The position numbers and the translations under genes were made by a program. Below are positions 1,123 through 35,231 of a stretch of 64,000 nucleotides of DNA, one piece after another; within the stretch, counting starts at the first letter, position 1, and every line of letters begins with the position of its first letter. Source of the stretch: a virus. The DNA is taken from IMG/VR virus record IMGVR_UViG_3300003322_000128, positions 1 to 64,000 of that record. One strand, written 5' to 3'. A model generated the notes under the pieces. The model saw only the letters and a program-made list of their open reading frames with translations. It had not been told where the DNA came from and did not search any database.

Positions 1123-1146
1123 GCGGGGATTCGTCCCCGCAAGCTT
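1123..1146 (+). promoter_or_regulatory. Stem-loop/AAGCTT intergenic element 1
   Basis: Arms GCGGGG (1123-1128) and CCCCGC (1135-1140), 6-nt loop, AAGCTT at 1141-1146. It lies between a stop codon and the rIIA-like gene's ribosome binding site. There is no T tract, so it is not a normal terminator. Confidence 0.85.
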
Positions 1147-1174
1147 TCATTGGTACAACAAAAGGAGATAACCA

Positions 1175-3094
1175 ATGCGACCAAATTCGGCCGTAGCTAC
1201 TCGAATTGGTGACCTTGGTGGAGAAAAGGTTGCCATGTCGTTTGACCAGAACAGTCTTGCTCATATCATGTCTGTTCTGACGGACTTGTATTCTGACCCG
1301 GAGCTTGCTATTGTACGAGAGTACAGCACCAATGCTTGGGATGCACAAGTTCGGGCGGGTGTTACTAGTCCCATTGAAGTTTATACACCAAATTCTCTAA
1401 GCCCTATGTTTAAGGTTAAGGATAATGGTGTTGGAATGAATGCGGATGATATCCGCAAGGTTTATTCTCAGTATGGTGCTTCTACTAAGCGTGATTCTGA
1501 TGAGTTTACAGGAATGCTTGGTCTTGGTTGTAAGGCAGCACTTACTTACACGAATCAGTTCATGGTTAATTCTGTGAAGGATGGAATTCGTACTCAGGTT
1601 GTTGTTTCCCGGACCGAAGATGGTTCTGGTATTATGGAGATTCTTTCTGAGACGGAAACTGATGACAGCAATGGTGTTGAAATCACTGTTCCTGTTAAGA
1701 AGAATAACCTTTTTCACCGCAAGTCTACGGAGTTCTTCAGGTTTTGGCATGAGGGCACTGTCCTTCTTAATGGAGCTGAGCCAGAAAAGATTCAGGGGCG
1801 TAAGCTTACTGATGACCTAATTCTTGTTCCGAACCTTGAGAATGACTTTGTTGTTATGGGTCATGTTGCTTATCCGATTGATAGTGAGCATGCAATTCAT
1901 CGGCGGGACTGGCGTTCCCGTTTTGGTGTTATTGCCAAGGTTCAGATTGGTGATGTAACCTTTACACCATCACGAGAGGCTTTGCAGTATACTATTCGTA
2001 CAGAAAAGACTCTTGATGGGCTGAGGGATAAGTTCGCTCAGAATCTAACTGCGGCGGCGCAGCGCGATATTGACGCCTGTGATAATCACATGGATGCTGC
2101 AAAGGCTTTCTGTGACTGGTCTAAGATTCTTTATGGGCACATTCAGCGTGGACATAAGTTCACTTACATGGATGAGTCTATTCCCACTGAGATTAATATC
2201 AAGGGTGGAATGAATTTCAGACTTCATTATAGTCGCGGTGCTGTTGATGAAGCCCGCTATGAGTCTATTGATTCTCTGACGAATCGTGTGGTAATCTATA
2301 ATTACACGAACGTTGATATCAAGAGTCATAATCGTGAGAAGATTAGGCTGTGGCTTAGTCAGAGTTCCGTTCCTCAAACAAATGTAATTCTTGTTGTGGA
2401 TGAACTTCCTGAGATTTTTGGTAAGTGGGTTAGTGATGAACACACATACGATTGGGAAGATGTAAAGAAGGTTAAGGCTGCTCGACAGACTGTTGAGAGG
2501 ACTGAGCCAACTTATGATGTCTATACTTCTGCGGGATTCCGGTCAATGACACTCAGTACCATTGGTGATGAAAAGGTCAAGGCTATGATTTCTTCAGCTA
2601 AGTTGAAGGAGCTTGACCGAAACTTCATTAGTTGGCTGCGCAAGGAATTTCCAGACATGCACGTTGTGCGACTTGCCAGCAATCGATGGGATAAGTTGCG
2701 GCGGGAACGAAAGAACGTCACCACGGTTCATGAGGTTCTTGTGAAGCACTACAAGAATGTGGTAGACTCTCTTACAGAGGACGACAAGATTTACATGATG
2801 TTGGATTACAACTCAAAGTACATCCTGCCGAATTTGGACGAGTCTGAAGTTCATGACCCCATGCTTGCTAAGATGATTAGGGCTAGCAAGACGCTGGTTG
2901 AATCTGATAATGTTAAGAAGTATCAGGCTGCCAGGACTATGGTGCTGCAATTTGAGTACCTTGATGAAGTTGACCTTGGCGAGATTTATCAGCCATTTGA
3001 AAAGTATCCGCTTCTTAACGCCTTGAATCGTCATGACTACGAAACGTCACGCAATCATGCAATTCAGTATGTGAACATGGTTTACGCGATGTAA
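1175..3094 (+). CDS. rIIA: rIIA-like protein (GHKL ATPase fold)
   Basis: The 639-residue protein has a GHKL ATP-binding N-terminus: REYSTNAWDA near 48-57 (N box), DNGVGM at 83-88 (G1) and GLGCKA at 116-121 (G2). This is the arrangement in T4 rIIA and its relatives. rIIA proteins associate with the membrane or genome and counter host exclusion systems such as RexAB; here the role is inferred from homology. AAAGGAG precedes the ATG. An rIIB-like gene follows after another stem-loop element, as in T4. Confidence 0.88.
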   Translation: MRPNSAVATRIGDLGGEKVAMSFDQNSLAHIMSVLTDLYSDPELAIVREYSTNAWDAQVRAGVTSPIEVYTPNSLSPMFKVKDNGVGMNADDIRKVYSQYGASTKRDSDEFTGMLGLGCKAALTYTNQFMVNSVKDGIRTQVVVSRTEDGSGIMEILSETETDDSNGVEITVPVKKNNLFHRKSTEFFRFWHEGTVLLNGAEPEKIQGRKLTDDLILVPNLENDFVVMGHVAYPIDSEHAIHRRDWRSRFGVIAKVQIGDVTFTPSREALQYTIRTEKTLDGLRDKFAQNLTAAAQRDIDACDNHMDAAKAFCDWSKILYGHIQRGHKFTYMDESIPTEINIKGGMNFRLHYSRGAVDEARYESIDSLTNRVVIYNYTNVDIKSHNREKIRLWLSQSSVPQTNVILVVDELPEIFGKWVSDEHTYDWEDVKKVKAARQTVERTEPTYDVYTSAGFRSMTLSTIGDEKVKAMISSAKLKELDRNFISWLRKEFPDMHVVRLASNRWDKLRRERKNVTTVHEVLVKHYKNVVDSLTEDDKIYMMLDYNSKYILPNLDESEVHDPMLAKMIRASKTLVESDNVKKYQAARTMVLQFEYLDEVDLGEIYQPFEKYPLLNALNRHDYETSRNHAIQYVNMVYAM

Positions 3095-3099
3095 TCGCG

Positions 3100-3122
3100 G
3101 CGGGCTTTATGCCCGCAAGCTT
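3100..3122 (+). promoter_or_regulatory. Stem-loop/AAGCTT intergenic element 2
   Basis: Arms GCGGGC (3100-3105) and GCCCGC (3111-3116), AAGCTT at 3117-3122, followed by CCTAAGAT and an AAGGAG. It separates the rIIA-like and rIIB-like genes. Confidence 0.85.
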
Positions 3123-3149
3123 CCTAAGATATCTAATAAGGAGTAATAA

Positions 3150-4109
3150 ATGAGTTTTCCATTTAGCATCTTCCGTTTCTCTGAGTCCGATGAAGTTAAT
3201 CTGACTGCATTCATTGATGGAGAGATGTATTCTTGCACAAGCGGTCATGACAATTATGACCGCATTAAGGAAATGTGCGAAGCGGGCGATGCTTCTGTTG
3301 TTGCCCTGTTCGATGTTTCTGCTGCTGAAGAGCGTTTTCGGCGGCTTTCTGAGCGGGTTTCCATCAGTGGTGGCGTTATCTACTTTGATGGTGAGCCAGT
3401 AAACAATGCTCTAACCGAGCAGGTTGTTCGATTCATTAATGAGGGTGTTGAAGACTTCAATCCTCTGATTCTCTTTTTCGAGAAGGTTCAGACGAATCCA
3501 AATCCTCACAGCCGTGAGCAGCTTTACCGTTGGCTTAACGACAGGTCTTTCACGATTAACCCGGACGGCAACATTCTTGCTTACAAGGGCGTCCGGAAGG
3601 TTGGCGATGCTTATGAGAGCATTCACCACGGTCGTGCTGTTGTAGATGGTGAGGTTCACAATGGTGCCATTCCTAACCCGATTGGCGCGGTTATTGAGAT
3701 GCCTCGCGGAGAAGTTCAGCATGACCCGTCTCGCGGGTGCCATACTGGTCTTCACGCCGGTACGTGGAATTACGCAAGTGGATTTGCTGAGGGTGCAGTT
3801 CTGACTGTCGAGATTAATCCACGGGACGTAGTTTCCGTACCAACGGACTGTCAGGACCAAAAGATGCGCGTTTGCCGGTACACTGTTGTTGAGGTTGTAG
3901 ACCAGGAGCTTCCTGGTGCTCTTCATGGTACGGTTGACACGCCGGATGTTGATGAGTATGATGAAGAGTCTACTGAAGAGGAACTTGGACCAAAGTTTGA
4001 CAACATTCGGAATGTCCAGACGTATCAGCCGGTAGGACATCTGTACACCGTTCCTTATCCTTATGATGAAGATGATGATGACGAGTACGATGCACCCTGG
4101 AATCAGTAA
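3150..4109 (+). CDS. rIIB: rIIB-like protein
   Basis: The 319-residue protein matches the rIIB pattern: a segment with ENP-like QTNPNPHSREQLYRWL, then FTINPDGNILAYKGVRK, then the conserved block with MPRGEV, DPSRGCHTGLHAGTWNYA. The tail is strongly acidic (EDDDDEYD). It directly follows the rIIA-like gene, the order seen in T4-type phages, and presumably acts with it against host exclusion. Confidence 0.85.
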   Translation: MSFPFSIFRFSESDEVNLTAFIDGEMYSCTSGHDNYDRIKEMCEAGDASVVALFDVSAAEERFRRLSERVSISGGVIYFDGEPVNNALTEQVVRFINEGVEDFNPLILFFEKVQTNPNPHSREQLYRWLNDRSFTINPDGNILAYKGVRKVGDAYESIHHGRAVVDGEVHNGAIPNPIGAVIEMPRGEVQHDPSRGCHTGLHAGTWNYASGFAEGAVLTVEINPRDVVSVPTDCQDQKMRVCRYTVVEVVDQELPGALHGTVDTPDVDEYDEESTEEELGPKFDNIRNVQTYQPVGHLYTVPYPYDEDDDDEYDAPWNQ

Positions 4110-4117
4110 TTGATTCC

Positions 4118-4141
4118 GCCCCCTGAATTGGGGGCAAGCTT
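4118..4141 (+). promoter_or_regulatory. Stem-loop/AAGCTT intergenic element 3
   Basis: Arms GCCCCC (4118-4123) and GGGGGC (4130-4135), AAGCTT at 4136-4141, then TCTAATAAAGGAG. It lies just after the rIIB-like stop. Confidence 0.85.
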
Positions 4142-4160
4142 TCTAATAAAGGAGAAGGAA

Positions 4161-4343
4161 ATGCTATTCTACATTCAAGAACGTTCGACTGGAAAGCCTT
4201 GCCGACTCGACAGGGATGATAATATTGTTCCATGCGATGACTTTGCCGATATGGTAATCATTCGTGATATGGAATACGCAAGAGGTCTTGTGGCAAACGA
4301 CTACAGGTTTTGTGCAAGGGTATTCTTCGGGCAGATTATCTAA
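4161..4343 (+). CDS. Hypothetical protein, 60 aa
   Basis: A compact mixed-charge protein beginning MLFYIQERSTGKPCR. The ATG at 4161 is chosen because AAAGGAGAAGGAA precedes it; upstream in-frame codons run through the stem-loop. No family recognised. Confidence 0.7.
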   Translation: MLFYIQERSTGKPCRLDRDDNIVPCDDFADMVIIRDMEYARGLVANDYRFCARVFFGQII

Positions 4344-4355
4344 GGAGGTATATTT

Positions 4356-4517
4356 ATGCGAGAATTTGTACGCAAGCTGATGGATAGGGATTGGTACCCT
4401 GAAGACGATGTTCCAGAATTTTCTACGATTGAAGAAGAGGACTTCTGGAAGCCGGGCGGATGGATTGATAATAGGTCACACTGGCAACAGTATGACGAAA
4501 TGCCATGGAATGGATGA
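4356..4517 (+). CDS. Acidic Trp-rich hypothetical protein, 53 aa
   Basis: An ATG follows AAGGAGG with good spacing. The product is acidic and carries six tryptophans (DWYPEDD, EEDFWKPGGW, HWQQ, MPWNG). It stops 3 nt before the metallophosphoesterase start, consistent with coupled translation. Family unknown. Confidence 0.65.
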   Translation: MREFVRKLMDRDWYPEDDVPEFSTIEEEDFWKPGGWIDNRSHWQQYDEMPWNG

Positions 4518-4520
4518 GTA

Positions 4521-5294
4521 ATGAAGGTTATGGTCCTTGGGGACACACATGGTGAGACTCAGTGGCTGAAGAATATGGTTAATAAGGCCAAGCGAATGGG
4601 TTGTGACCGAATTCTTCAGGTTGGCGATTTTGGTATTTGGACTCACGAAGCAGAGGGTCACCGCTTTCTTGATACTGCAAATGAGGAACTACGACGAAAT
4701 GGTTTGAAGTTGTATTTTCTCGGCGGGAATCATGAAAACTGGGACCACCTCAATTGGTGGGAAAAGAACAACGCGAAGTCTTATCACGGACACGTATATG
4801 TTAGGTCTCACATTCTTTATACCGGGCGAGTTAATCGTTGGGTATGGGGAGAAAAGGGTTCTGAGAAAGTTTTTCAGGTTGTAGGTGGTGCTGTTTCTGT
4901 AGACAAGAATCATCGTACAGTTGGAAAGACTCTGTGGCTTGATGAGGAAATTCCTGAGCGGGTTGTTTATGGACTTGAGAAGGCTAACCGTCCATGTGAT
5001 TATCTGTTCACACACGATGCACCTACCTGTGTTCCGATGAGCAATTTGAAGCCTGACATTGATTCTGCTAGGCATCGTGGATATATGGACCGAATTGGGC
5101 GGGCTACCCGGCCGAACCTTTGGTTCCATGGCCACTATCATAAGTGGATGGAATATTCCTTTATGCACCAGCAGGGCTATTCATTTGTTTATGGGCTTGA
5201 CCGCGATTTCCAATTTTACAGTTATGTGATTTTGGACACAGATTCTGATAGCGTAAAGATGGCAACTGGCAAGGTTATCGAGCACGGGAATTGA
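4521..5294 (+). CDS. Calcineurin-like metallophosphoesterase, 257 aa
   Basis: The metal-binding motifs occur in order: GDTHG (7-11), GDFG (36-39), GGNHE (68-72), a THDAP segment and a C-terminal HGHYH. This is the binuclear-metal phosphoesterase fold. The substrate cannot be told; phage relatives act on nucleic acid ends, nucleotides or phosphoproteins. A second metallophosphoesterase of a different subtype is encoded at 28641. Confidence 0.9.
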   Translation: MKVMVLGDTHGETQWLKNMVNKAKRMGCDRILQVGDFGIWTHEAEGHRFLDTANEELRRNGLKLYFLGGNHENWDHLNWWEKNNAKSYHGHVYVRSHILYTGRVNRWVWGEKGSEKVFQVVGGAVSVDKNHRTVGKTLWLDEEIPERVVYGLEKANRPCDYLFTHDAPTCVPMSNLKPDIDSARHRGYMDRIGRATRPNLWFHGHYHKWMEYSFMHQQGYSFVYGLDRDFQFYSYVILDTDSDSVKMATGKVIEHGN

Positions 5295-5299
5295 GTCAT

Positions 5300-5328
5300 T
5301 TGCCATTTGAAAATAAACCTTCTATAAT
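5300..5328 (+). promoter_or_regulatory. Sigma70-type promoter
   Basis: TTGCCA (5300-5305), a 17-bp spacer and a perfect TATAAT (5323-5328). A small GGAGG/CCTCC hairpin sits in the 5' leader before an AAGGAGGTG ribosome binding site. It drives the gene at 5382. Confidence 0.8.
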
Positions 5329-5381
5329 TGACTTTATGGAGGTTGAAGCCTCCGAAAGTTTGAAGGAGGTGTAACATTCAA

Positions 5382-5819
5382 ATGGCAAATGATGAAAAGG
5401 CTCCAGAGTCACGTATCCTTTCTAAGGAAGAGCGTGCTGAGGCACTAAAGGCTTCTGATGCTAAGGCTGCAAAGCAGGAGTACAAGCCTTACACGTCAGT
5501 TGACGCCGTTGAACCACATGGTCCACATGGTGTTGAGGAGGCTGCCGCTAAGCGTGCTAAGGATGCTGGTGTGACTGACCCTGCCTTCGTTAATTACGAA
5601 GAGGCTCTAGAGAATTACCAGGCCCGTCCTGACGTTGAGCCACTAAATGAGCGTCGTGCTCGTGAGGGTGGTCGTGATTTCAACGCAGCTTCATTCCGTC
5701 GTGAGGTTGGAGGAACGGACAATGCAGGAGTAACCACTTCTGAGGACGTTTCTACAGATTCTGATGACGACAAGACAGCAAACAAGACTTCCGCTGTTCG
5801 TAAGCCTGCATCTAAGTAA
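5382..5819 (+). CDS. Disordered, highly charged hypothetical protein, 145 aa
   Basis: The protein lacks hydrophobic segments. It is rich in Ala, Glu, Lys and Asp and ends in a low-complexity Ser/Thr/Asp/Lys tail (VSTDSDDDK). It has its own strong promoter and a very strong AAGGAGGTG ribosome binding site, which suggests high expression. No domain recognised; an internal virion or DNA-associated protein is possible but not shown. Confidence 0.75.
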   Translation: MANDEKAPESRILSKEERAEALKASDAKAAKQEYKPYTSVDAVEPHGPHGVEEAAAKRAKDAGVTDPAFVNYEEALENYQARPDVEPLNERRAREGGRDFNAASFRREVGGTDNAGVTTSEDVSTDSDDDKTANKTSAVRKPASK

Positions 5820-5837
5820 GTCTAAGAAGTTTGGTGA

Positions 5838-5877
5838 AAACCCGGTGTTGACAAAGCGCCGGGTTTTTGCTTATACT
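5838..5877 (+). promoter_or_regulatory. Overlapping terminator and promoter
   Basis: AAACCCGG (5838-5845) pairs with CCGGGTTT (5859-5866), followed by Ts: an intrinsic terminator for the gene at 5382. Its loop holds TTGACA (5848-5853), the -35 of a promoter with TATACT at 5872-5877 (18-bp spacer). The downstream unit is thus started from inside the upstream terminator. Confidence 0.75.
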
Positions 5878-5895
5878 AGAAAGCCAGGAGGGAAA

Positions 5896-6227: not shown

Positions 6228-6240
6228 GGCTTAGGCCCAT

Positions 6241-10424: not shown

Positions 10425-10500
10425 GTGTGGGTCGAAGAAGAACGGTTATCAAACTAATTATGGGTAAACACATCGTTCTTCGCTTTTATATCCACACATG
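10425..10500 (+). ncRNA. Candidate small structured RNA
   Basis: GTGTGG (10425-10430) pairs with CCACAC (10492-10497), and inside it GAAGAACG (10437-10444) pairs with CGTTCTTC (10474-10481). The element begins at the predicted start site, has no credible reading frame and ends before the next promoter. It may be a small RNA or an attenuating hairpin. Confidence 0.5.
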
Positions 10501-10542
10501 ACTTCTAGTATATTTGACATTAGAAGTCAAGCTTGTTATAAT
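10500..10542 (+). promoter_or_regulatory. Stem-loop/AAGCTT element that is a promoter
   Basis: GACTTCTA (10500-10507) pairs with TAGAAGTC (10521-10528), followed by AAGCTT (10529-10534). TTGACA (10514-10519) sits in the loop and TATAAT is at 10537-10542 (17-bp spacer). This is the full form of the family: stem, -35 in loop, AAGCTT, -10. Confidence 0.8.
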
Positions 10543-11682: not shown

Positions 11683-11696
11683 AAAATCCGGGCGGG

Positions 11697-11725
11697 TTGG
11701 CTTGACTCGCCTAAGCTGCTATAAT
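11697..11725 (+). promoter_or_regulatory. Promoter for a leaderless gene
   Basis: TTGGCT (11697-11702), 17-bp spacer ending in AAGCTGC, TATAAT (11720-11725). The ATG follows 6 nt later. The AAGCT just before the -10 links it to the stem-loop/AAGCTT family. Confidence 0.7.
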
Positions 11726-12741: not shown

Positions 12742-12761
12742 GCCCGGAAACGGGCAAGCTT
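12742..12761 (+). promoter_or_regulatory. Stem-loop/AAGCTT intergenic element
   Basis: Arms GCCCG and CGGGC around a GAAA tetraloop (12742-12755), AAGCTT at 12756-12761, then GAAGGGAG. Confidence 0.85.
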
Positions 12762-13273: not shown

Positions 13274-13291
13274 GCCCGAAAGGGCAAGCTT
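13274..13291 (+). promoter_or_regulatory. Stem-loop/AAGCTT intergenic element
   Basis: GCCC/GGGC stem with GAAA tetraloop (13274-13285), AAGCTT at 13286-13291. Confidence 0.82.
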
Positions 13292-15348: not shown

Positions 15349-15372
15349 GCGGGTGTAAAAACCCGCAAGCTT
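15349..15372 (+). promoter_or_regulatory. Stem-loop/AAGCTT intergenic element
   Basis: Arms GCGGGT (15349-15354) and ACCCGC (15361-15366), AAGCTT at 15367-15372, then an AT-rich stretch and AAAGGAG. Confidence 0.85.
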
Positions 15373-17686: not shown

Positions 17687-17723
17687 GAGAGGGGTTGACA
17701 GCTCCTCTCAAGCTAGTTAGAAT
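17687..17723 (+). promoter_or_regulatory. Stem-loop/AAGCTA element that is a promoter
   Basis: GAGAGG (17687-17692) and CCTCTC (17704-17709) flank TTGACA (17695-17700). AAGCTA (17710-17715) and TAGAAT (17718-17723) follow, with a 17-bp spacer. A 60-nt leader separates it from the next gene. Confidence 0.82.
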
Positions 17724-17978: not shown

Positions 17979-18005
17979 GGGGTTTCGTAAAGAGACCCCA
18001 AGCTT
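17979..18005 (+). promoter_or_regulatory. Stem-loop/AAGCTT intergenic element
   Basis: GGGGT (17979-17983) pairs with ACCCC (17995-17999); the loop contains TTCGTAAAG. AAGCTT at 18000-18005, then an AAGGAG. Confidence 0.82.
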
Positions 18006-18027: not shown

Positions 18028-18681
18028 ATGCGCGAGTACCCTAAGATTGATAATCTGTACAAGCGTAATCCTGAGAAGAAGTCAGAGCTTCTTGTCGGTA
18101 CATATACCCGGCCGGAATTTTCTCTGATTGATGCTTGGGATGTTACGGAGAAGGTTGACGGTACAAACGTTCAGCTGAAGTTCCACAGGGTTTTTAACGG
18201 CTCGTTTGATATTAATGGGCGTACCGAGCGCGCGCAGTTTACCATTGGCCAGGAGAATTTTCTTGAGGAGCTTGGTGACAGCATTCGCGGTAAGGTTCTT
18301 CACACCATTAATGCATTCAACCTTGATACGCTGACCATCTATGGTGAGCTATATGGCCCAAGGATTCAGTCTGGTGGGAATTATTCTACTGAGCTTGGAT
18401 TCCGGGCATTTGACATGATGGTGAATGACAAGGTATGGTTGGCACCTGAGGATGTTCGTAAGAACGCCGAGTACTTTGGTGTTGAGCAGGTTCCTAACCT
18501 GGGGACAATGACTACTGAGAGTATCTTTCTGATGGTTGCCGGGGGATTTAAGTCCACCTTTGCAATCAATGAAGATTATGATGCAGAAGGTGTTATTGCA
18601 AAGCCGCCGTGGAATCTGTATGACCAGCGTGGAGAGCGGGTTATGTTTAAGCTCAAGACGTGCGATTTGAAGCATCTGTAA
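18028..18681 (+). CDS. RNA ligase, T4 Rnl2-like, 217 aa
   Basis: Nucleotidyltransferase motif I is EKVDGTN with the adenylated lysine at residue 42. Motif III-like GELYG, IIIa-like FRAFDMMV, motif IV EGVIAKP and motif V FKLKT follow. The length suits a minimal Rnl2-type adenylyltransferase domain. It would seal 3'-OH/5'-phosphate RNA nicks, for example in tRNAs cut by host nucleases. The ATG at 18028 follows AAGGAGAGATATA. Confidence 0.9.
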   Translation: MREYPKIDNLYKRNPEKKSELLVGTYTRPEFSLIDAWDVTEKVDGTNVQLKFHRVFNGSFDINGRTERAQFTIGQENFLEELGDSIRGKVLHTINAFNLDTLTIYGELYGPRIQSGGNYSTELGFRAFDMMVNDKVWLAPEDVRKNAEYFGVEQVPNLGTMTTESIFLMVAGGFKSTFAINEDYDAEGVIAKPPWNLYDQRGERVMFKLKTCDLKHL

Positions 18682-18687
18682 AGATGC

Positions 18688-18713
18688 GGCCAGATGAAAA
18701 TCTGGCCAAGCTT
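18688..18713 (+). promoter_or_regulatory. Stem-loop/AAGCTT intergenic element
   Basis: GGCCAGAT and ATCTGGCC around a GAAA tetraloop (18688-18707), AAGCTT at 18708-18713. Confidence 0.87.
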
Positions 18714-19844: not shown

Positions 19845-19864
19845 GCCCCGAAAGGGGCAAGCTT
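19845..19864 (+). promoter_or_regulatory. Stem-loop/AAGCTT intergenic element
   Basis: GCCCC/GGGGC with GAAA tetraloop (19845-19858), AAGCTT at 19859-19864. Confidence 0.85.
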
Positions 19865-20502: not shown

Positions 20503-20522
20503 GCGGGGCAACCCGCAAGCTT
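20503..20522 (+). promoter_or_regulatory. Stem-loop/AAGCTT intergenic element
   Basis: GCGGG/CCCGC with GCAA tetraloop (20503-20516), AAGCTT at 20517-20522, immediately followed by GGAGG. Confidence 0.85.
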
Positions 20523-20937: not shown

Positions 20938-21324
20938 GTGTCTGTTGAGTTTAACACCTTTTGTGCTGTTGGGGATAAGGAAATTCCTGCTAAGCTTTTC
21001 TATAGCAGTGATGACCCTGCTGTACTTGAATTCACATTCTATAATACTGGTAAGACCACAACATCCGCCCGGTGGATTTTTGCCCGGGATTTGATTCATG
21101 ATGCATTCAATTCAGAATGCGGAGAATCAGGGATTGGTGATATCAGGGTAGAAGCAGACAATGAATCCGTTTTGTTCTGGATTACCTCAAATGACGGAGA
21201 TGCTTTGGCTACATTTGAGCGGGCGGTCATTGATGAGTTTATGGAATGTGTATATGATGAAGTTCCCGAAGGAGAAGACCACTACGAAATCCCGGATGAA
21301 TTTCCTGAGGAATGGCTAGTGTAA
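20938..21324 (+). CDS. SsgA-like (SALP) protein, 128 aa
   Basis: The sequence follows the SsgA/SsgB plan through its length: a DDPAVLEFTF strand (25-34), the signature RWIFARDLI (45-53), GIGDIRV (65-71), an LFWITSNDGDALATFER strand-helix, and a C-terminal EVPEGEDH like the VPxGxE of SALPs. Host SALPs localise FtsZ and control septation and sporulation in mycelial actinomycetes. A phage copy could modulate host cell division or spore formation; that is inference. The GTG start lies 2 nt after the previous stop. Confidence 0.85.
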   Translation: MSVEFNTFCAVGDKEIPAKLFYSSDDPAVLEFTFYNTGKTTTSARWIFARDLIHDAFNSECGESGIGDIRVEADNESVLFWITSNDGDALATFERAVIDEFMECVYDEVPEGEDHYEIPDEFPEEWLV

Positions 21325-21532: not shown

Positions 21533-21553
21533 GCCCCATTCAGGGGCAAGCTT
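21533..21553 (+). promoter_or_regulatory. Stem-loop/AAGCTT intergenic element
   Basis: GCCCC/GGGGC (21533-21547), AAGCTT at 21548-21553. A perfect 12-bp palindrome CACGCATGCGTG (21569-21580) follows, possibly an operator. Confidence 0.82.
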
Positions 21554-24144: not shown

Positions 24145-24182
24145 GAGGGGCTATCTCATAAACGGGATAGCCCCTCAAGCTT
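24145..24182 (+). promoter_or_regulatory. Stem-loop/AAGCTT intergenic element
   Basis: An 11-bp stem GAGGGGCTATC/GATAGCCCCTC (24145-24176), AAGCTT at 24177-24182. TATAAT lies at 24191-24196 but no -35 is at the right distance. Confidence 0.87.
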
Positions 24183-24383: not shown

Positions 24384-24405
24384 GGGGAAGTAATTCCCCA
24401 AGCTT
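24384..24405 (+). promoter_or_regulatory. Stem-loop/AAGCTT intergenic element
   Basis: GGGGAA/TTCCCC with GTAA loop (24384-24399), AAGCTT at 24400-24405, then GAAGGAGG. Confidence 0.85.
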
Positions 24406-25283: not shown

Positions 25284-25320
25284 GGTGGGGCTTGACAGCC
25301 TCACCAAGCTTAGGTAGGGT
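25284..25320 (+). promoter_or_regulatory. Stem-loop/AAGCTT element that is a promoter
   Basis: GGTGGGGC/GCCTCACC (25284-25305) with TTGACA in the loop (25292-25297), AAGCTT (25306-25311), TAGGGT (25315-25320) at 17 bp. Confidence 0.82.
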
Positions 25321-26026: not shown

Positions 26027-26059
26027 GGGCCGGGTTGCAAATCAACCCGGCCCAAGCTT
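26027..26059 (+). promoter_or_regulatory. Stem-loop/AAGCTT intergenic element
   Basis: A 10-bp stem GGGCCGGGTT/AACCCGGCCC (26027-26053), AAGCTT at 26054-26059, then TTTAAGGAG. Confidence 0.87.
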
Positions 26060-26191: not shown

Positions 26192-26224
26192 GGGGTTGAC
26201 GTTCAACCCCAAGCTTGTTAGACT
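26192..26224 (+). promoter_or_regulatory. Stem-loop/AAGCTT element that is a promoter
   Basis: GGGGTT/AACCCC (26192-26210), TTGACG (26196-26201) overlapping the left arm, AAGCTT (26211-26216), TAGACT (26219-26224) at 17 bp. Confidence 0.82.
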
Positions 26225-26247: not shown

Positions 26248-26667
26248 ATGGAATCCACTAATGGAATGAAGCTTATTTTTACACGGCATGCAGAGGAGCA
26301 GATTCAGGCTAAGGGATTCGACAAGGATTTGATTGTCTCTGAATTCCCGAATGTGACCGAAGACAAGATTTCTCCGAATAAGAAGTTTGAGGGGCAGTTC
26401 CGAGTAGTTGTGGGAGATGTCTGCCTTGTCGGTGCTCCAATGTACGGCATGTTTAGGGTGTTTACTTTGTATGAGGATGGTGTGATGACACCCCCTCGCC
26501 CTGACCAACTCAATACTATTGAGGGCCAGCGGTATGCTCACCTGTATGAGAAGATGCAGCGTGAGAAGAATCGTACGGCAAACAATGGGAATATGAAGCG
26601 GAAGAATGAATACTGGCCGCGAGTTCATGAGCGTCGTAGTGAGATTGGTCACAGGCTCATAAAGTAA
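26248..26667 (+). CDS. DUF4258/RelE-like N-terminus protein, 139 aa
   Basis: The opening MKLIFTRHAEEQIQAKGFDKDLI matches the TrHAxxRixxRgi start of DUF4258-type RelE/BrnT-fold proteins, followed by beta strands (FRVVVGDVCLVG, FRVFTLYEDGVM). A basic helical tail extends it. A nuclease function is possible, but no antitoxin is evident. GGAGGTAAAG precedes the ATG. Confidence 0.66.
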   Translation: MESTNGMKLIFTRHAEEQIQAKGFDKDLIVSEFPNVTEDKISPNKKFEGQFRVVVGDVCLVGAPMYGMFRVFTLYEDGVMTPPRPDQLNTIEGQRYAHLYEKMQREKNRTANNGNMKRKNEYWPRVHERRSEIGHRLIK

Positions 26668-27233: not shown

Positions 27234-27266
27234 GCGGGGTGTTTTCCCTTGACACCCCGCAAGCTA
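27234..27266 (+). promoter_or_regulatory. Stem-loop/AAGCTA intergenic element
   Basis: GCGGGGTGT/ACACCCCGC (27234-27260) with TTGACA overlapping the right arm, AAGCTA at 27261-27266. The next ATG overlaps the last base. Confidence 0.78.
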
Positions 27267-27731: not shown

Positions 27732-27751
27732 GGCCCGAAAGGGCCAAGCTT
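27732..27751 (+). promoter_or_regulatory. Stem-loop/AAGCTT intergenic element
   Basis: GGCCC/GGGCC with GAAA tetraloop (27732-27745), AAGCTT at 27746-27751. Confidence 0.85.
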
Positions 27752-28008: not shown

Positions 28009-28030
28009 GCCCCAGAGATGGGGCAAGCTT
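28009..28030 (+). promoter_or_regulatory. Stem-loop/AAGCTT intergenic element
   Basis: GCCCC/GGGGC (28009-28024), 6-nt loop, AAGCTT at 28025-28030. Confidence 0.85.
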
Positions 28031-28278: not shown

Positions 28279-28301
28279 GCCCGGCTATGTCGGGCAAGCT
28301 T
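28279..28301 (+). promoter_or_regulatory. Stem-loop/AAGCTT intergenic element
   Basis: GCCCG/CGGGC (28279-28295), 7-nt loop, AAGCTT at 28296-28301. Confidence 0.85.
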
Positions 28302-29225: not shown

Positions 29226-29253
29226 GATGGGGTGGAAACACCCCATCAAGCTT
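29226..29253 (+). promoter_or_regulatory. Stem-loop/AAGCTT intergenic element
   Basis: GATGGGGTG/CACCCCATC with GAAA tetraloop (29226-29247), AAGCTT at 29248-29253. Confidence 0.88.
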
Positions 29254-29573: not shown

Positions 29574-29597
29574 GCCCGATGAAAATCGGGCAAGCTT
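29574..29597 (+). promoter_or_regulatory. Stem-loop/AAGCTT intergenic element
   Basis: GCCCGAT/ATCGGGC with GAAA tetraloop (29574-29591), AAGCTT at 29592-29597. Confidence 0.88.
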
Positions 29598-30684: not shown

Positions 30685-30693
30685 AGAGGGATT

Positions 30694-30885
30694 ATGACAC
30701 ACGATACAGAATTCCCATCTAATTGGGATATGATGACCAGTGCTGAAAGGACTGCTTGGTTAGCTAAGTGGTTCGATGCTAACGTAAGTAAGCATCAGAA
30801 CATTGGGAACATGAAGCGTGCAAAGGCAGAACGTGAATGGAGGGCTTACCGCACTAAGAACGGTAGGGGTAAGCGCAGGAAGTAG
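30694..30885 (+). CDS. Basic helical protein, 63 aa
   Basis: Helical, with a very basic C-terminus (KRAKAEREWRAYRTKNGRGK). GAGGG precedes the ATG. Its stop overlaps the GTG of a zinc-ribbon gene. Confidence 0.66.
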   Translation: MTHDTEFPSNWDMMTSAERTAWLAKWFDANVSKHQNIGNMKRAKAEREWRAYRTKNGRGKRRK

Positions 30886-30998
30886 TGCCAAGTTGTCCAA
30901 GATGCAGGAAAAGCGATAAGGTACAAAAATCAAAGTCTAGGTCCATTTTAATCAAATTCATCTGTAAGAGATGCAATCACGAATTTGAGGCGCCTTGA
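30885..30998 (+). CDS. Zinc-ribbon peptide, 37 aa
   Basis: GTG start sharing a base with the previous stop (TAGTG); AGGAAG precedes it. CPRC and CKRC pairs 24 residues apart are joined by basic residues and followed by NHEF. It is a minimal zinc ribbon, probably nucleic-acid binding. Confidence 0.62.
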   Translation: MPSCPRCRKSDKVQKSKSRSILIKFICKRCNHEFEAP

Positions 30999-31004
30999 TT
31001 TTGC

Positions 31005-31031
31005 GGGGGTGGGCTTTCCACCCCCAAGCTT
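31005..31031 (+). promoter_or_regulatory. Stem-loop/AAGCTT intergenic element
   Basis: GGGGGTGG/CCACCCCC (31005-31025), 5-nt loop, AAGCTT at 31026-31031. Confidence 0.87.
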
Positions 31032-31049
31032 GTCTACATAGGAGAAAAA

Positions 31050-31241
31050 ATGATTTCCCGTAATGGATGTATTGCTTTTGCATGTGGAGCTTTTCTACTT
31101 GCCTTCGTGAATTTTATCGCGGGATTGGGTGCTGTTGTTACTCATGACCCGTTGTGGCTTGTGGGAGTAAAGTTTGCAAGTGCAGCGATTTGGTTTGCAT
31201 GTTGTGCGGTGTGGGTTGTTGGAGCCATTACCCGCGAGTAA
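31050..31241 (+). CDS. Two-TM membrane protein, 63 aa
   Basis: Hydrophobic segments at 7-29 and 36-60 with several cysteines. AGGAGAAAAA precedes the ATG. Function unknown. Confidence 0.7.
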   Translation: MISRNGCIAFACGAFLLAFVNFIAGLGAVVTHDPLWLVGVKFASAAIWFACCAVWVVGAITRE

Positions 31242-31251
31242 CCTATTGACA

Positions 31252-31275
31252 GGCAGATGAAAGTCTGCCAAGCTA
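31252..31275 (+). promoter_or_regulatory. Stem-loop/AAGCTA intergenic element
   Basis: GGCAGA/TCTGCC (31252-31269), AAGCTA at 31270-31275. TTGACA (31246-31251) abuts it but no -10 stands at the right distance. Confidence 0.75.
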
Positions 31276-31302
31276 GCACTACCAACAGCAAGGAGGTAGG
31301 AG

Positions 31303-31743
31303 ATGCTGAACCAATATATTTGCCTAAATTGTTACAATGGCAATTGCGACGAGTGTGCTGATAAGCACAAGGTTTTCCCTGATTGTCAGCATGAATGTAA
31401 CAGGCAGAAGGAAGAGGCTCGGAAGATGAACGTCCACAAGCTTGACGTAGTTGCCGAGAATGGTGTACCGTTCCGAGTGGTGGTGCTGGTTGACGGGAAG
31501 TCTGAGAATTTCAACACGGCTTCCTTGAGCAATAAGAGTCTGGTAGAGTTCTATGACAGGCGCTATGACTTCACCCCTGATGGTCAGTTTACCGGTCATC
31601 GTATCTACCTTGACACTGCTCTTGAAGCCTCTGTGTACACCATGAGCTTTGACCAGCCTTCTTGGCAGATGGACTCTCGTACTTCCCGAACGGTTCGCGA
31701 TTGGTTGCACTTCCTGGTTGACAGGGAATCGGTTCGGGTGTAA
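31303..31743 (+). CDS. Protein with N-terminal Cys/His cluster, 146 aa
   Basis: Residues 7-32 carry CLNCYNGNCDECADKH and CQHEC, a probable zinc site. The remainder is alpha/beta (FRVVVLVDGKSENF; TSRTVRDWLHFLV). Overlapping its 3' end is the -35 of the next promoter. Family unknown. Confidence 0.72.
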   Translation: MLNQYICLNCYNGNCDECADKHKVFPDCQHECNRQKEEARKMNVHKLDVVAENGVPFRVVVLVDGKSENFNTASLSNKSLVEFYDRRYDFTPDGQFTGHRIYLDTALEASVYTMSFDQPSWQMDSRTSRTVRDWLHFLVDRESVRV

Positions 31744-31746
31744 GGT
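31718..31746 (+). promoter_or_regulatory. Promoter of the long untranslated RNA unit
   Basis: TTGACA (31718-31723), 17-bp spacer, TAAGGT (31741-31746). The transcript would start near 31753 and run to the terminator at 32116-32190. Confidence 0.72.
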
Positions 31747-31849
31747 AGTAACACGTAAAACGGTGGGGCAAGGTGAGATAAGTTCCCCAAACTCCACCAA
31801 GCTTTCTAAACTGCCGATGACCCCGGAATGAAAATTCCGGGCGAGGACA

Positions 31850-31924
31850 GCCCCAATAGCATAATCCCGGCGAATGCGCCTTTAGAATAGTAGGAGATAG
31901 CAGGTTCAAATCCTGCTGGGGTTG
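31850..31924 (+). tRNA. tRNA-like element, anticodon not assignable
   Basis: AGCCCCA pairs with TGGGGTT as an acceptor, GCAT/ATGC as a D stem, and GCAGG-TTCAAAT-CCTGC is a perfect T arm. The anticodon arm region (CCT...AGG) gives at best a 6-nt loop with a mismatch and no U33. It may be a degenerate tRNA or a tRNA mimic. Confidence 0.5.
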
Positions 31925-32115
31925 CTAGGACAAATCTTCTGTTAGATTGTGTCCTAAGTAAAATGACCGGCTAGCTCGTGTGCAGGAACGCTAAGGGTGC
32001 TTTCGCGGGGATTCAGTTAGAATCCCACCGAACGTTTAAAGGTCCTGTTCCTGTACTAGGCGAGGGTTAATGGGCTTAGTAGGAAATCCCCGAAAAGTCA
32101 CTGATAACAATTACC

Positions 32116-32190
32116 GGGTAGCCCAGTTAAATAGCGAGGTGGAGACGAAAGTCGTAGAAGCCAATGACCTATTTAACTGGGCTTTTTGTT
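32116..32190 (+). terminator. Long-stem terminator of the RNA unit
   Basis: AGCCCAGTTAAATA pairs with TATTTAACTGGGCT (14 bp) across a structured loop that contains an ACG/CGT-type inner hairpin, followed by TTTTTG. Confidence 0.78.
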
Positions 32191-32221
32191 TGACCAAAAT
32201 CGTCTGAAGGAGACAGTAAAC

Positions 32222-32410
32222 ATGATGATTCCCGCTCCCCGTGTTGCTGAGCCTACCGTATTGAAGTGCCGTGAGGATGGCTGTGAAGGCACTTATGAGC
32301 CGTACCGAGATGGTTCGCTGTCCTGTTACTGCGGCAGCCGCTCTAACCTCACTGTGGACGATGTAGAGATTCTGAACATGACCATTGTGTATGAGCGTAG
32401 CGACTGCTAA
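32222..32410 (+). CDS. Zinc-ribbon protein, 62 aa
   Basis: CREDGCEG and CYCG about 18 residues apart form a zinc ribbon, followed by a beta/acidic part. AAGGAGACAGTAAAC precedes the ATG pair. Function unknown. Confidence 0.68.
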   Translation: MMIPAPRVAEPTVLKCREDGCEGTYEPYRDGSLSCYCGSRSNLTVDDVEILNMTIVYERSDC

Positions 32411-32417
32411 GATTTAT

Positions 32418-32445
32418 GCTGGGGATGAAAATCTCCAGCAAGCTT
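32418..32445 (+). promoter_or_regulatory. Stem-loop/AAGCTT intergenic element
   Basis: GCTGGGGAT/ATCTCCAGC with GAAA tetraloop and one G-T pair (32418-32439), AAGCTT at 32440-32445. Confidence 0.87.
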
Positions 32446-32476
32446 GCAACATCGACATTCTAATTAAGGAAACAAA

Positions 32477-32689
32477 ATGGTGTTTTTCGTTCTGCTCCTG
32501 GTTCTCGGTTCGGCTTGGGTTATTTCTGCCTGGTCTTTCATGCTGTTCGTTGGTATGGTTCATCATGACATTCTTCCGGCCGTGATTCCCATTTCGTATC
32601 AGACTTCTCTTCAGATTACTGGTGTGATGCTTGCGTTCACCTTTGGCTTTGCTCTTCTTTCTGGAATTCTTCGAGAGGCTGCAAAGTAG
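32477..32689 (+). CDS. Two-TM membrane protein, 70 aa
   Basis: Hydrophobic segments at 2-26 and 42-64. A weak TAAGGAAACAAA site precedes the ATG. Function unknown. Confidence 0.7.
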   Translation: MVFFVLLLVLGSAWVISAWSFMLFVGMVHHDILPAVIPISYQTSLQITGVMLAFTFGFALLSGILREAAK

Positions 32690-32695
32690 TAATCC

Positions 32696-32720
32696 GGCCG
32701 GATTTATTCCGGCCAAGCTT
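32696..32720 (+). promoter_or_regulatory. Stem-loop/AAGCTT intergenic element
   Basis: GGCCGGA/TCCGGCC (32696-32714), 5-nt loop, AAGCTT at 32715-32720. Confidence 0.87.
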
Positions 32721-32746
32721 TCAACAACAAATGTGAGGTAAATTAA

Positions 32747-33121
32747 ATGCTATTCAGTGATGCACAGAGCCTCAATGAGGGCGACGAGATGTTCGTTACC
32801 GATGGTGTTGGTCGTGCTACTCATCAGGTGGTTACCAAGCTGAGTGGCCCATACTACAATGGATTCTCAAGCCACGGTGTCCTTGTTGTCAGGGATGAGA
32901 GCAACCAGGTTCGGGTCTACAACCTTGGTGACCTAGTGATAAAGCCTGCTGTGCCTGTTGAGGGACAAACGTGGGTTCGTAAGACTGATGGTAAGAGCCG
33001 ATATGTTGCTGGTGTGACAGACAATTTTGTCATCGTAAAGCAGAGTGCCGGGGCTTCTAATGCCAGGGCATATGTGGTTGAGATGAGCCTGTTTCTGACT
33101 ACGTATCGTAAGTACAGTTAG
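32747..33121 (+). CDS. Beta-rich hypothetical protein, 124 aa
   Basis: Two similar beta segments (GDEMFVTDGVGRATHQVV; GQTWVRKTDGKSRYVAGV) suggest duplicated SH3-like modules. GTGAGGTAAATTAA precedes the ATG. Function unknown. Confidence 0.72.
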   Translation: MLFSDAQSLNEGDEMFVTDGVGRATHQVVTKLSGPYYNGFSSHGVLVVRDESNQVRVYNLGDLVIKPAVPVEGQTWVRKTDGKSRYVAGVTDNFVIVKQSAGASNARAYVVEMSLFLTTYRKYS

Positions 33122-33128
33122 GATTGTC

Positions 33129-33602
33129 ATGATTGGCTGTGTTGAGGATGCCGAATTCATTGCAGAATGGGATTTTCGGCATCCTCTTCCAGATGGGTGG
33201 AGTTTTGCCGGTGAAGGCGCAACACGTGTTGCAGTGATAAGCCCGGATGGAATTGTCTATAAGGTAGAGCTTAGTCCAGATGGTTCTAATTCAAACGAAT
33301 ATATGAACATTCAGAGGATTAAAAAGCTGCCTCCCATTAAGGGATGGGAAATTGCGGATGCCTCCCTTTACATTCTAGATAACTTCAAATCAGTCATTGC
33401 TATGGAATACATTGAAGGCAGTGATGATATTGAATGCGGTTCGTATCTTGGACCAGAGTTTAAATGCACATGTAAAATGAAGCCTTGTGTGGCTTATGTG
33501 TGGGAGGTCACCGCTAGACTGTGGGGTGTGTGGGACCTTACAAGTGATAACATCAGAGTGCAGCCTGATGGTACTCGGATTGTCATCGATGCAGTGTCTT
33601 GA
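33129..33602 (+). CDS. Kinase-fold-like protein, 157 aa
   Basis: The pattern recalls a compact protein-kinase/APH fold: GEGATRVAVI as a nucleotide loop, IVYKVEL with a candidate lysine, VIAMEYIEG as hinge, and WDLTSDNIRV with RIVIDAVS where the catalytic D-x-x-x-x-N and metal-binding D occur. It is much shorter than normal kinases, so it may be a pseudokinase or have a different use. Confidence 0.6.
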   Translation: MIGCVEDAEFIAEWDFRHPLPDGWSFAGEGATRVAVISPDGIVYKVELSPDGSNSNEYMNIQRIKKLPPIKGWEIADASLYILDNFKSVIAMEYIEGSDDIECGSYLGPEFKCTCKMKPCVAYVWEVTARLWGVWDLTSDNIRVQPDGTRIVIDAVS

Positions 33603-33609
33603 CTGACCA

Positions 33610-33637
33610 GCCCAGTCTTGATAGACTGGGCAAGCTT
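33610..33637 (+). promoter_or_regulatory. Stem-loop/AAGCTT intergenic element
   Basis: GCCCAGTC/GACTGGGC (33610-33631), 6-nt loop, AAGCTT at 33632-33637. Confidence 0.87.
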
Positions 33638-33669
33638 CAGAAGGAACCATATCCTTTAAGGAAGAGAGT

Positions 33670-33909
33670 ATGGGAACGAAGATTCGGCACGTGACGGTAA
33701 TGATTGGTAAGGTTGAGTCCGTACCATTGACCCGTTTTGCCAAGCGAATTTGTCCGGCATGCAAGACTGAGCGTTTCATTACTCAGCGCAGTAAGTTTCT
33801 CAAGCACAATAATGGCGAAAAGGAATGCCGTGCTGTTGGCCTGACAATTGACCAGTACAATAAGCTTAACGAAGAGCTGATTGCAGCTCGTAAGGCAACT
33901 TTCAAGTAA
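33670..33909 (+). CDS. Basic zinc-finger-like protein, 79 aa
   Basis: CPACKTERF, later a lone His and ECR give one possible zinc site (CxxC...H...C). The protein is basic and helical at its end. AAGGAAGAGAGT precedes the ATG. Possibly nucleic-acid binding. Confidence 0.7.
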   Translation: MGTKIRHVTVMIGKVESVPLTRFAKRICPACKTERFITQRSKFLKHNNGEKECRAVGLTIDQYNKLNEELIAARKATFK

Positions 33910-33919
33910 GGATATGCAT

Positions 33920-34066
33920 ATGGCTAAGGTTGTTCGTCGTCAGCAGACCCGCAAGATTCAGACTCCTCGGAGTAAGAAGACTCGGGACTATCGCAACGGC
34001 AATGACTTTTCCAATTTCAAGGGTCCTAGGTATTCTCGTAAGGATAAGTATCCTGTAGCGTACTGA
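33920..34066 (+). CDS. Very basic peptide, 48 aa
   Basis: About one third Arg/Lys (KVVRRQQTRKIQTPRSKKTRDYR). TAAGGATATGCAT precedes the ATG at 33920; an ATG at 33914 is possible. A nucleic-acid-binding role is likely from composition only. Confidence 0.6.
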   Translation: MAKVVRRQQTRKIQTPRSKKTRDYRNGNDFSNFKGPRYSRKDKYPVAY

Positions 34067-34074
34067 CTAATTCG

Positions 34075-34105
34075 CCCGGCTGTGATAACATGGCCGGGTA
34101 AGCTT
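34075..34105 (+). promoter_or_regulatory. Stem-loop/AAGCTT intergenic element
   Basis: CCCGGC/GCCGGG (34075-34098), 12-nt loop, then TAAGCTT (AAGCTT at 34100-34105). Confidence 0.78.
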
Positions 34106-34128
34106 CCAACAAACAATGGAGAATAAAA

Positions 34129-34278
34129 ATGAGTGAGTTTGACAAGAGTGTGGATGAGCTTTTCGACACTGCTGCTCGATGGAGTAAGGGAATTGTAGTA
34201 GCGTCTGTCGTTCTGGCCCTGGGGGTCCTGAGCGTTGTTCTTTGGGCCATTATTTCTCTGGTCCTTCACTTCACGTGA
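34129..34278 (+). CDS. One-TM protein, 49 aa
   Basis: An acidic N-terminus (SEFDKSVDELFD) is followed by one long hydrophobic segment (22-47). GGAGAATAAAA precedes the ATG. Function unknown. Confidence 0.64.
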   Translation: MSEFDKSVDELFDTAARWSKGIVVASVVLALGVLSVVLWAIISLVLHFT

Positions 34279-34284
34279 AATTTC

Positions 34285-34310
34285 GGCGGGTTGAAAAATC
34301 CGCCAAGCTT
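34285..34310 (+). promoter_or_regulatory. Stem-loop/AAGCTT intergenic element
   Basis: GGCGGGTT/AATCCGCC with GAAA tetraloop (34285-34304), AAGCTT at 34305-34310. Confidence 0.87.
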
Positions 34311-34332
34311 TAGCACCATCGTAAGGAGAGAA

Positions 34333-34380
34333 ATGTATTGTCGCTGTGGTAGACCTTACCCCTGCTTTGAACATCAGTGA
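34333..34380 (+). CDS. 15-aa Cys-rich leader peptide
   Basis: TAAGGAGAGAA precedes the ATG of MYCRCGRPYPCFEHQ, a zinc-knuckle-like peptide. Its stop lies 10 nt before the GTG of the next gene, so it probably acts by translational coupling. Compare the 16-aa peptide at 5896. Confidence 0.5.
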   Translation: MYCRCGRPYPCFEHQ

Positions 34381-34390
34381 AGGAACCAAA

Positions 34391-34750
34391 GTGAAGCTGT
34401 TCAAGACAAAGGAAATTCCCTCCGCTCGTAAGCCTGATTATGATTTCATCAGTAAGGCTGAGAAGGAATTCCGAATTGATGATGAGGGTTTCAATGAGAG
34501 GTTTGATGAAGCTCTCATTAATGATTACAAGGCCCGGAAGAATGCATCAAACTGGACTACAGAGGAACGGCTGAGGGAAGTCGAGAGGCTTTCTTCTCAG
34601 CTGACATCTTTCAGGTGGAAGATGGTTGCTGTCAATCAGACTGTCCGAATTGAAAGTCAGTTGCGTGATGAACGCCATGGCCCTGGCTTTGATGCAGCAT
34701 GCAAGGCACTGCGTAGTCGAATGATGTTGCCCCGAAGCATCAACAGATAA
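34391..34750 (+). CDS. Helical charged hypothetical protein, 119 aa
   Basis: The GTG at 34391 with GAAGGA upstream is preferred; a GTG at 34346 would overlap the leader peptide. The protein is helical and charged (EERLREVERLSSQL) with basic C-terminus. Function unknown. Confidence 0.66.
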   Translation: MKLFKTKEIPSARKPDYDFISKAEKEFRIDDEGFNERFDEALINDYKARKNASNWTTEERLREVERLSSQLTSFRWKMVAVNQTVRIESQLRDERHGPGFDAACKALRSRMMLPRSINR

Positions 34751-34756
34751 AATTGC

Positions 34757-34784
34757 GGCGGGTTAGAAATAACCCGCCAAGCTG
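34757..34784 (+). promoter_or_regulatory. Stem-loop/AAGCTG intergenic element
   Basis: GGCGGGTTA/TAACCCGCC with GAAA tetraloop (34757-34778), AAGCTG at 34779-34784. Confidence 0.86.
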
Positions 34785-34821
34785 CAACACCAAAATAAAT
34801 AATAAACCGTTAGGAATAAAA

Positions 34822-35196
34822 ATGAACCGTCGTATTACGGCTGCTGTTGTCTCTGCTGTTGCTGTCTCTGTGGTGGCTACGGGTTGTTCTGCCTCTGCTG
34901 GTCACTCTGTCAGCCGCGCGGGAATTGTGGTGGACCGCGATATTGAAGGGCATGGCTATGAACTGGAGACTAAGAACAGTTCTGGCAAGCACGAGTTTAG
35001 TGTGAGCGCCAAGGTTTATCACGATTGTCAGAAGCGCGAGTACTACCCCTCTTGCATTAAGAGCAGCAAGAAGGACAGCGATAACCGCAAGAGCTACAAG
35101 AAGTCCAAGAAGAAGCGCTCTTGGTCTTGGACTAAGAAGAACAAGTCTAAGAAGTCTTCTAAGGGATTTAGCTTTAAGCGGAGTAAGAGGCGCTAA
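34822..35196 (+). CDS. Putative lipoprotein with Lys-rich tail, 124 aa
   Basis: A signal peptide with lipobox VATGC (cysteine 22) precedes a short beta domain with two cysteines, then a Lys/Ser-rich tail (KKSKKKRSWSWTKK). It would be anchored outside the membrane. Phage lipoproteins often block superinfection; here that is inference. TAGGAATAAAA precedes the ATG. Confidence 0.78.
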   Translation: MNRRITAAVVSAVAVSVVATGCSASAGHSVSRAGIVVDRDIEGHGYELETKNSSGKHEFSVSAKVYHDCQKREYYPSCIKSSKKDSDNRKSYKKSKKKRSWSWTKKNKSKKSSKGFSFKRSKRR

Positions 35197-35205
35197 GTAA
35201 AACCC

Positions 35206-35231
35206 GGGCGAAAGAAATTTCGCCCAAGCTT
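35206..35231 (+). promoter_or_regulatory. Stem-loop/AAGCTT intergenic element
   Basis: GGGCGAAA/TTTCGCCC with GAAA tetraloop (35206-35225), AAGCTT at 35226-35231. It is the last clear + strand copy before the family disappears. Confidence 0.87.

Follow-up and report, generated by a model that had tools for sequence, protein, structure and literature searches.

In the cip-cel operon of Ruminiclostridium cellulolyticum, intergenic stem-loops are accompanied by cuts that lie mostly 3′ of the stem, and the hairpins stabilise the processed ends (PMC10311766). Mycobacterial RNase E cleaves at the motif RR|CNU, and its sites are enriched between genes (PMC10641625). In phage T4, RegB cuts GGAG in ribosome sites, and messages are also processed by host RNase E (review PMC3014915). 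Here we describe a family of RNA hairpins in a virus record of 98.8 kb, of which the first 64 kb form the window (IMG/VR IMGVR_UViG_3300003322_000128, positions 1 to 64,000). Each element is a perfect stem-loop followed at once by AAGCT, mostly AAGCTT, and is as a rule found directly behind a gene. The window belongs to a Streptomyces phage of the family Stanwilliamsviridae, subfamily Loccivirinae, and the closest sequences in a DNA search were those of Streptomyces phages Faust, TunaTartare, Sham and their relatives.

As a kind, the elements belong with intercistronic stem-loop signals; they are set apart by their stop-codon anchor, by a free stem joined to a fixed AAGCU, and by copy number. 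Like the cip-cel stem-loops, they are GC-rich and separate genes of one long message. However, cip-cel has six sites in one bacterial operon, no common 3′ sequence and cleavage that is independent of the cut sequence (PMC10311766), whereas the phage elements number about 40–60 per genome, carry a near-invariant AAGCU and stand at a fixed distance from the stop codon. AAG|CUU fits all stated positions of the mycobacterial RNase E sites; at those sites neighbouring bases matter little and there is no fixed stem-loop (PMC10641625), whereas the same bases are near-invariant in the phage elements, where we infer cutting. T4 messages likewise have intergenic endonuclease sites, some of them beside stop codons (gene 32 +831), but no repeated hairpin-plus-pentamer family (PMC3014915). 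The start-associated and extended start-associated sequences of cluster K mycobacteriophages also occur in many actinophage copies at gene boundaries, mostly on one strand; they are kept with gene families, and some have inverted repeats (PMC3203893). In those, a 13-mer of constant sequence, GGGATAGGAGCCC, sits at the start codon, and the 17 bp inverted repeats are likewise fixed in sequence (PMC3203893), whereas the present elements have a free stem and a stop-codon anchor. At 0 or 1 mismatch, the 13-mer was absent from every Loccivirinae sequence read, and no fixed start-codon position of the cluster K type was seen: the distance to the start is loose, that from the preceding stop is fixed. 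A literature search, in which subscription journals were thinly covered, gave no earlier description of such elements in Streptomyces phages.

Between positions 1 and 36000, the + strand had 32 hairpin-AAGCT sites and the opposite strand none; 100 dinucleotide shuffles gave 0.13 sites on average and never more than 3. Over the whole window, perfect hairpins ending at AAGCT numbered 36 on the + strand and 5 on the − strand, the latter being chance occurrences. Two + strand sites, 23168 (intragenic) and 38338, were chance-like and were dropped, leaving 34 credible copies. In an unbiased listing of pentamers directly 3′ of + strand hairpins, AAGCT occurred 23 times, its shifted form AGCTT 6 times and the next pentamer 4 times; on the − strand, AAGCT was not prominent. 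A search of the window at Rfam gathering scores returned tRNAs only and no described RNA family for the elements. The first-pass annotation, made from the sequence alone, had reported at least 34 intergenic stem-loops with AAGCTT on the + strand, a number that our count bears out, and its nine example coordinates were all correct. Its one − strand copy, at 47444, folded no better than shuffles (z = 0.20).

The elements are restricted to one phage subfamily. In twelve Loccivirinae genomes (seven of which were read from 60 kb on only), 588 candidate elements were detected, 40–62 per genome; a hairpin of this type accompanies 4.4% of − strand AAGCT sites, so part of the 588 is chance. A strict pattern, CAAGCTT plus a ribosome site, gave 10–24 forward matches per genome in five Loccivirinae genera (Faustvirus, Annadreamyvirus, Gilsonvirus, Wakandavirus and Wilnyevirus), 9 in the unclassified relative Byblos, and 0–3 in four Boydwoodruffvirinae and Elmer. 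In Mildred21 and Elmer, hairpin-AAGCT counts were equal between strands within chance. Candidate copies outside the subfamily were rejected: unrelated viral contigs matching a degenerate pattern held 1–5 hairpin-AAGCT sites without strand bias, and the lone bacterial match to this pattern was a Campylobacterales metagenome-assembled genome. In fully read genomes, the elements lie chiefly in the right arm, among small genes of unknown function, and hardly any occur in the structural operon. Elements in the window end at 35.2 kb because the other genome arm begins past the point at which G001, a near-identical contig of 129.9 kb, ends and begins (window 37242 and 37322).

Within the twelve genomes, 388 distinct stop-linked elements contained 195 distinct left arms. 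Stems are mostly 4–13 bp long with a GC content of 83%, and the bottom pair is G-C in 376 elements, giving a fixed part G(stem)C-AAGCT around a free interior. A REP-type repeated palindrome requires a conserved stem, and the diversity of left arms excluded this assignment. The 268 tetraloops were chiefly GNRA (141) and UUCG (74), in line with the frequent GNRA loops noted earlier. A C-G pair closes 57 of the 74 UUCG loops versus 17 of 53 other tetraloops, and C-G closure of UUCG is a rule of RNA stability. When hairpins 3–9 nt past the ends of open frames were collected without requiring AAGCT, AAGCTT followed 369 of 640; another 59 had a 3′ flank with one mismatch, which fell at the sixth base in 50 cases and at base 1 in 6. 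The pentamer AAGCT is thus nearly invariant, with more freedom at the sixth base, which is T in 79% of elements. Self-pairing between copies through the AAGCUU palindrome was rejected on the same grounds, as T6 varies whereas A1 is constant. Folding in context was predicted with a mean pair probability of 0.95. Predicted openness was 0.68 for A1 and 0.78 for A2, compared with 0.52 and 0.54 in random hexamers.

Selection acts on the pairing of these stems as RNA, a conclusion that is well supported. Stems range in length between 4 and 18 bp, and for this reason an ortholog test and pair counts took the place of a pooled covariance model. Among 199 orthologous junctions with AAGCT in six representative genomes, taken without conditioning on pairing, 188 had a perfect hairpin, far above the 4.4% background. 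Pair changes at orthologous junctions, counted conditional on perfect stems, involved both partners in 434 cells and only one in 74. In one aligned set of eight, two-sided changes occurred at 6 of 11 pairs with all cells paired, and 0 of 500 shuffles matched either value. The junction at 29226..29253 (+ strand; 9 bp stem, loop GAAA, AAGCTT, stop codon +3) was used for a covariation test. Comparison of the window with G001 illustrates the same behaviour over a short distance. At 26027..26059 (+; 11 bp stem, AAGCTT, stop +6), 10 of the 11 differences in 280 nt fall within the stem-loop, where they exchange one perfect hairpin for another. One compensatory swap each was found at 28009..28030 (+; 6 bp stem, AAGCTT, stop +12), where loop GAGA is GAAA in G001, and at 29574..29597 (+; 7 bp stem, loop GAAA, AAGCTT, stop +6). 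The covariation check in related phages that had been proposed thus came out positive, and the proposal that stems differ from copy to copy while pairing is kept by RNA-level selection is strengthened by covariation, by RNA tetraloops with the proper closing pair and by strand bias.

The fixed reference point of the element is the stop codon of the preceding gene. Stems start 5–8 nt beyond it, with a mode of 6, and phages of the sister subfamily have no hairpin peak at that distance. The spacing between AAGCTT and the ribosome site is only loosely kept (quartiles 7 and 21), and the leader 3′ of AAGCTT is A-rich. According to rough in-house gene calls, on which the gap statistics rest, an element is present in 70% of gaps of 40–60 nt versus 0–1% of gaps shorter than 30 nt. 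It is kept in 71% of cases with the upstream gene alone, in 63% with the downstream gene alone and in 89% with both, against a base rate of 30%; these percentages are not decisive for either neighbour, and a tie to only one of them was not adopted. Of the first-pass interpretation, RNA-level selection, the rejection of a canonical terminator (see below) and the distinction from mycobacteriophage start-associated sequences stand; its − strand copy and the weight it placed on the start side are not supported. The stop-codon anchor and the near-constant G-C bottom pair had been overlooked.

Our preferred reading, which we hold tentatively, is that the element is an intercistronic signal for mRNA processing and 3′-end capping, with cleavage at AAG|CUU carried out either by an RNase E-like enzyme of the host or by a nuclease of the phage. 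In favour of a processing and capping site are the presence of RR|CNU within AAGCUU (A-AG|CUU) and the cip-cel stem-loop precedent. The replacement of stems with AAGCT retained, the GNRA and C-G-closed UUCG loops, the fixed spacing from the stop codon with a loose one to the ribosome site, and the predicted folding with A1 and A2 more open than in random hexamers are also in its favour. The GC-rich hairpin would lie just outside the ribosome terminating at the upstream stop and would remain folded during translation of that gene. AAGCU, at the 3′ base of the hairpin, would be the recognition site of an endoribonuclease cutting most likely at AAG|CUU. After such a cut, the upstream message would end in a hairpin able to withstand 3′ exonucleases, and the downstream message would keep a short leader with its ribosome site accessible. 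As known from frameshift spacers, 5–8 nt past the stop is about the spacing at which a stem meets a ribosome with the stop codon in its A site. This distance would therefore place the hairpin as near to the gene as possible without melting at termination, and the spacing fits a 3′-end function.

A candidate for a phage-encoded enzyme is a BrnT/DUF4258-like protein of 139 residues with a predicted RelE fold, encoded at 26248..26667 (+ strand). The gene is present in all 12 Loccivirinae genomes and belongs to a set of genes that the fully read Loccivirinae share and that searches did not find in two sister phages. DUF4258 was matched by 8 of 11 orthologs, under the curated cut-off (best E 0.002). 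The protein model (mean pLDDT 73, low after residue 108) had its best structural matches among RelE, YoeB, HigB and YafQ toxins, with E-values from 0.002 up, which is suggestive of a RelE-type toxin fold. The protein occurs in 38 phage records, all of Streptomyces phages and some annotated as BrnT-like toxin; searches of Elmer and of four Samistivirus genomes did not detect it, and the Faust annotation shows no evident antitoxin gene beside it. In 11 of the 12 genomes (the exception being Wakanda), the gene directly follows a hairpin-AAGCT element that carries promoter-like hexamers; nine of these elements satisfy a strict promoter spacing test. A link between this protein and the elements is hypothetical.

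Several observations weigh against the processing reading. RRCNU fits a random register with a frequency of 1/64, and the RNase E motif comes from mycobacteria, not Streptomyces. G3 and T5 are near-invariant here though the context required by RNase E is weak, so RNase E alone does not account for the motif and a dedicated factor deserves serious consideration. For G3–T6, predicted openness was no higher than in the control. A search of three phage genomes for an RNase E/G homologue found none, and sister phages with the same kinds of host manage without the element. As for a phage enzyme, co-occurrence of the BrnT-like gene and the elements could be explained by shared ancestry alone. A more specific scheme, in which a dedicated phage nuclease, possibly the BrnT-like protein, reads the hairpin at the terminating ribosome plus AAGCU and cuts messages across the subfamily into hairpin-capped units, perhaps coupled to termination, appears unlikely to us. 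Avoidance of AAGCT in genes was considered as a sign of a free-standing nuclease and rejected, as depletion was not consistent in three genomes (observed versus expected, 79 vs 83.5, 93 vs 83.6 and 73 vs 98.2).

Alternatively, a dedicated phage RNA-binding protein could read G(stem)C-AAGCU and control stability or translation without cutting; near-invariance of AAGCU and the bottom G-C pair beside a free stem resembles protein recognition, and the element is limited to a subfamily that shares many private genes. However, no such protein was identified, and one would expect a translation operator to keep a constant spacing from the ribosome site, whereas the fixed distance here is to the stop codon; we regard this as possible, though not probable. 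Placement between the stop and the next ribosome site, near-absence where genes overlap or gaps fall below 30 nt, and the A-rich leader would also suit a translation insulator, whose hairpin blocks ribosomes from sliding to the next start after the stop and keeps the next ribosome site free. The near-invariant AAGCU is left unexplained by such a function, which we consider improbable.

Position directly behind genes, and fusion of some copies to downstream promoter-like sequence as at unit boundaries, would be expected of a non-canonical pause site for transcription, or of a conditional terminator lacking a T tract, at the close of each transcription unit. The GC-rich hairpin of an intrinsic terminator is present, but AAGCTT takes the place of the T tract directly 3′ of it, the first 8 nt hold at most 2–3 U, and many stems have only 4–5 bp. 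T-tract hairpins occur separately in these genomes. In addition, the ribosome site lies at most 15 nt from AAGCTT in 64% of the non-composite copies that have one; a new promoter would not fit there, and expression of the next gene therefore depends on read-through. Together these points make a terminator unlikely. The same lack of room in non-composite copies argues against a DNA-level element, that is, a promoter, operator, or recombination or replication site, although AAGCTT is palindromic as DNA and a promoter-like −35/−10 pair at fixed spacing occurs in some copies. Restriction to a single strand, linkage to stop codons, RNA tetraloops with C-G-closed UUCG, and the asymmetric tolerance of mismatches at base 6 over base 1 all point away from DNA, and we give this explanation very little credence.

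Whatever their role, the elements amount to an RNA code that marks gene ends densely and throughout a clade of phages that have been cultured and repeatedly sequenced. With 40–60 natural variants per genome in which pairing is kept and sequence is free, the setting of message boundaries by large phages in a high-GC actinobacterial host is directly testable. Should the element prove to be a processing site, Streptomyces expression vectors could make good use of AAGCU with a hairpin as a cut or cap part.

A minority of copies are composites. In 49 of 588 elements (about 8%), TTG(A/C)C lies within the hairpin and TANNNT follows 16–18 nt on, just past AAGCTT. Composites have longer stems, and their ribosome sites lie at a distance of about 19 nt or more, which gives the room that a promoter requires. 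A sigma-70-type promoter as the general identity of the family was rejected, as only these 49 combine hexamers, spacing and room. Five window copies, all on the + strand, have promoter-like hexamers: 10500..10534 (10 bp stem, TTGACA, AAGCTT, TATAAT; no near stop found), 11690..11718 (AAGCTG, TATAAT/TATACT; stop +7), 17687..17715 (hairpin contains TTGACA; AAGCTA; TAGAAT 17 nt on; stop +7), 25284..25311 (TTGACA; AAGCTT; TAGGGT 17 nt on; stop +6) and 26192..26216 (TTGACG; AAGCTT; TAGACT 17 nt on), which has the BrnT-like gene 31 nt downstream. Another type of hairpin-promoter fusion, in which the TT of AAGCTTGACA starts the −35 box (TTGACA, 17–18 nt, TANNNT), was seen at G001 90526, Faust 84814 and in relatives.

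The remaining window copies are likewise on the + strand and are followed by AAGCTT unless stated otherwise. At stop +6 are 13274..13291 (4 bp stem, loop GAAA), 15349..15372 (6 bp; orthologous site kept in 11 other genomes), 17979..18005 (8 bp), 18688..18713 (8 bp, GAAA), 19845..19864 (5 bp, GAAA), 28279..28301 (7 bp), 31005..31031 (9 bp), 32696..32720 (7 bp), 34285..34310 (8 bp, GAAA) and 34757..34784 (9 bp, GAAA, AAGCTG). Stop +7 was found for 12742..12761 (5 bp, GAAA), 20503..20522 (5 bp, GCAA), 27732..27751 (5 bp, GAAA), 32418..32445 (9 bp, GAAA) and 34074..34105 (11 bp), stop +5 for 1123..1146 (7 bp, TTCG), 3100..3122 (6 bp) and 35206..35231 (8 bp, GAAA), and stop +8 for 4118..4141 (6 bp) and 24384..24405 (6 bp, GTAA). 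Other offsets belong to 33610..33637 (9 bp, stop +3), 24145..24182 (13 bp, stop +10), 31252..31275 (7 bp, GAAA, AAGCTA, stop +10), 27234..27266 (10 bp, AAGCTA, stop +20) and 21533..21553 (5 bp, stop +22).

Some other features of these phages were also observed. The terminal repeats of Faust are 772 bp long. A tandem run of three tRNA-Thr genes with anticodons ggt, cgt and tgt lies on the − strand of the window at 46937-47210. An RNA ligase (PF09414; window 18028-18678, L002:262-2039) is private to Loccivirinae; with a second RNA ligase and a polynucleotide kinase encoded elsewhere in the genome, it makes up an RNA repair set. An SsgA-like protein, a member of a Streptomyces sporulation and cell-division family that is here phage-borne, is encoded at window 20953-21321 and L002:24520-24897 (Pfam PF04686; the Faust copy matches with E 1.6e-16). 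Another repeated palindrome, CTTTCGTAAAG, was found in 2–5 copies per Loccivirinae genome, on the + strand only; in G001 it lies at 104530, 106736, 111311, 114065 and 114104 (window about 11.5–21.5 kb), and its copies are frequently close to promoters or tRNA.

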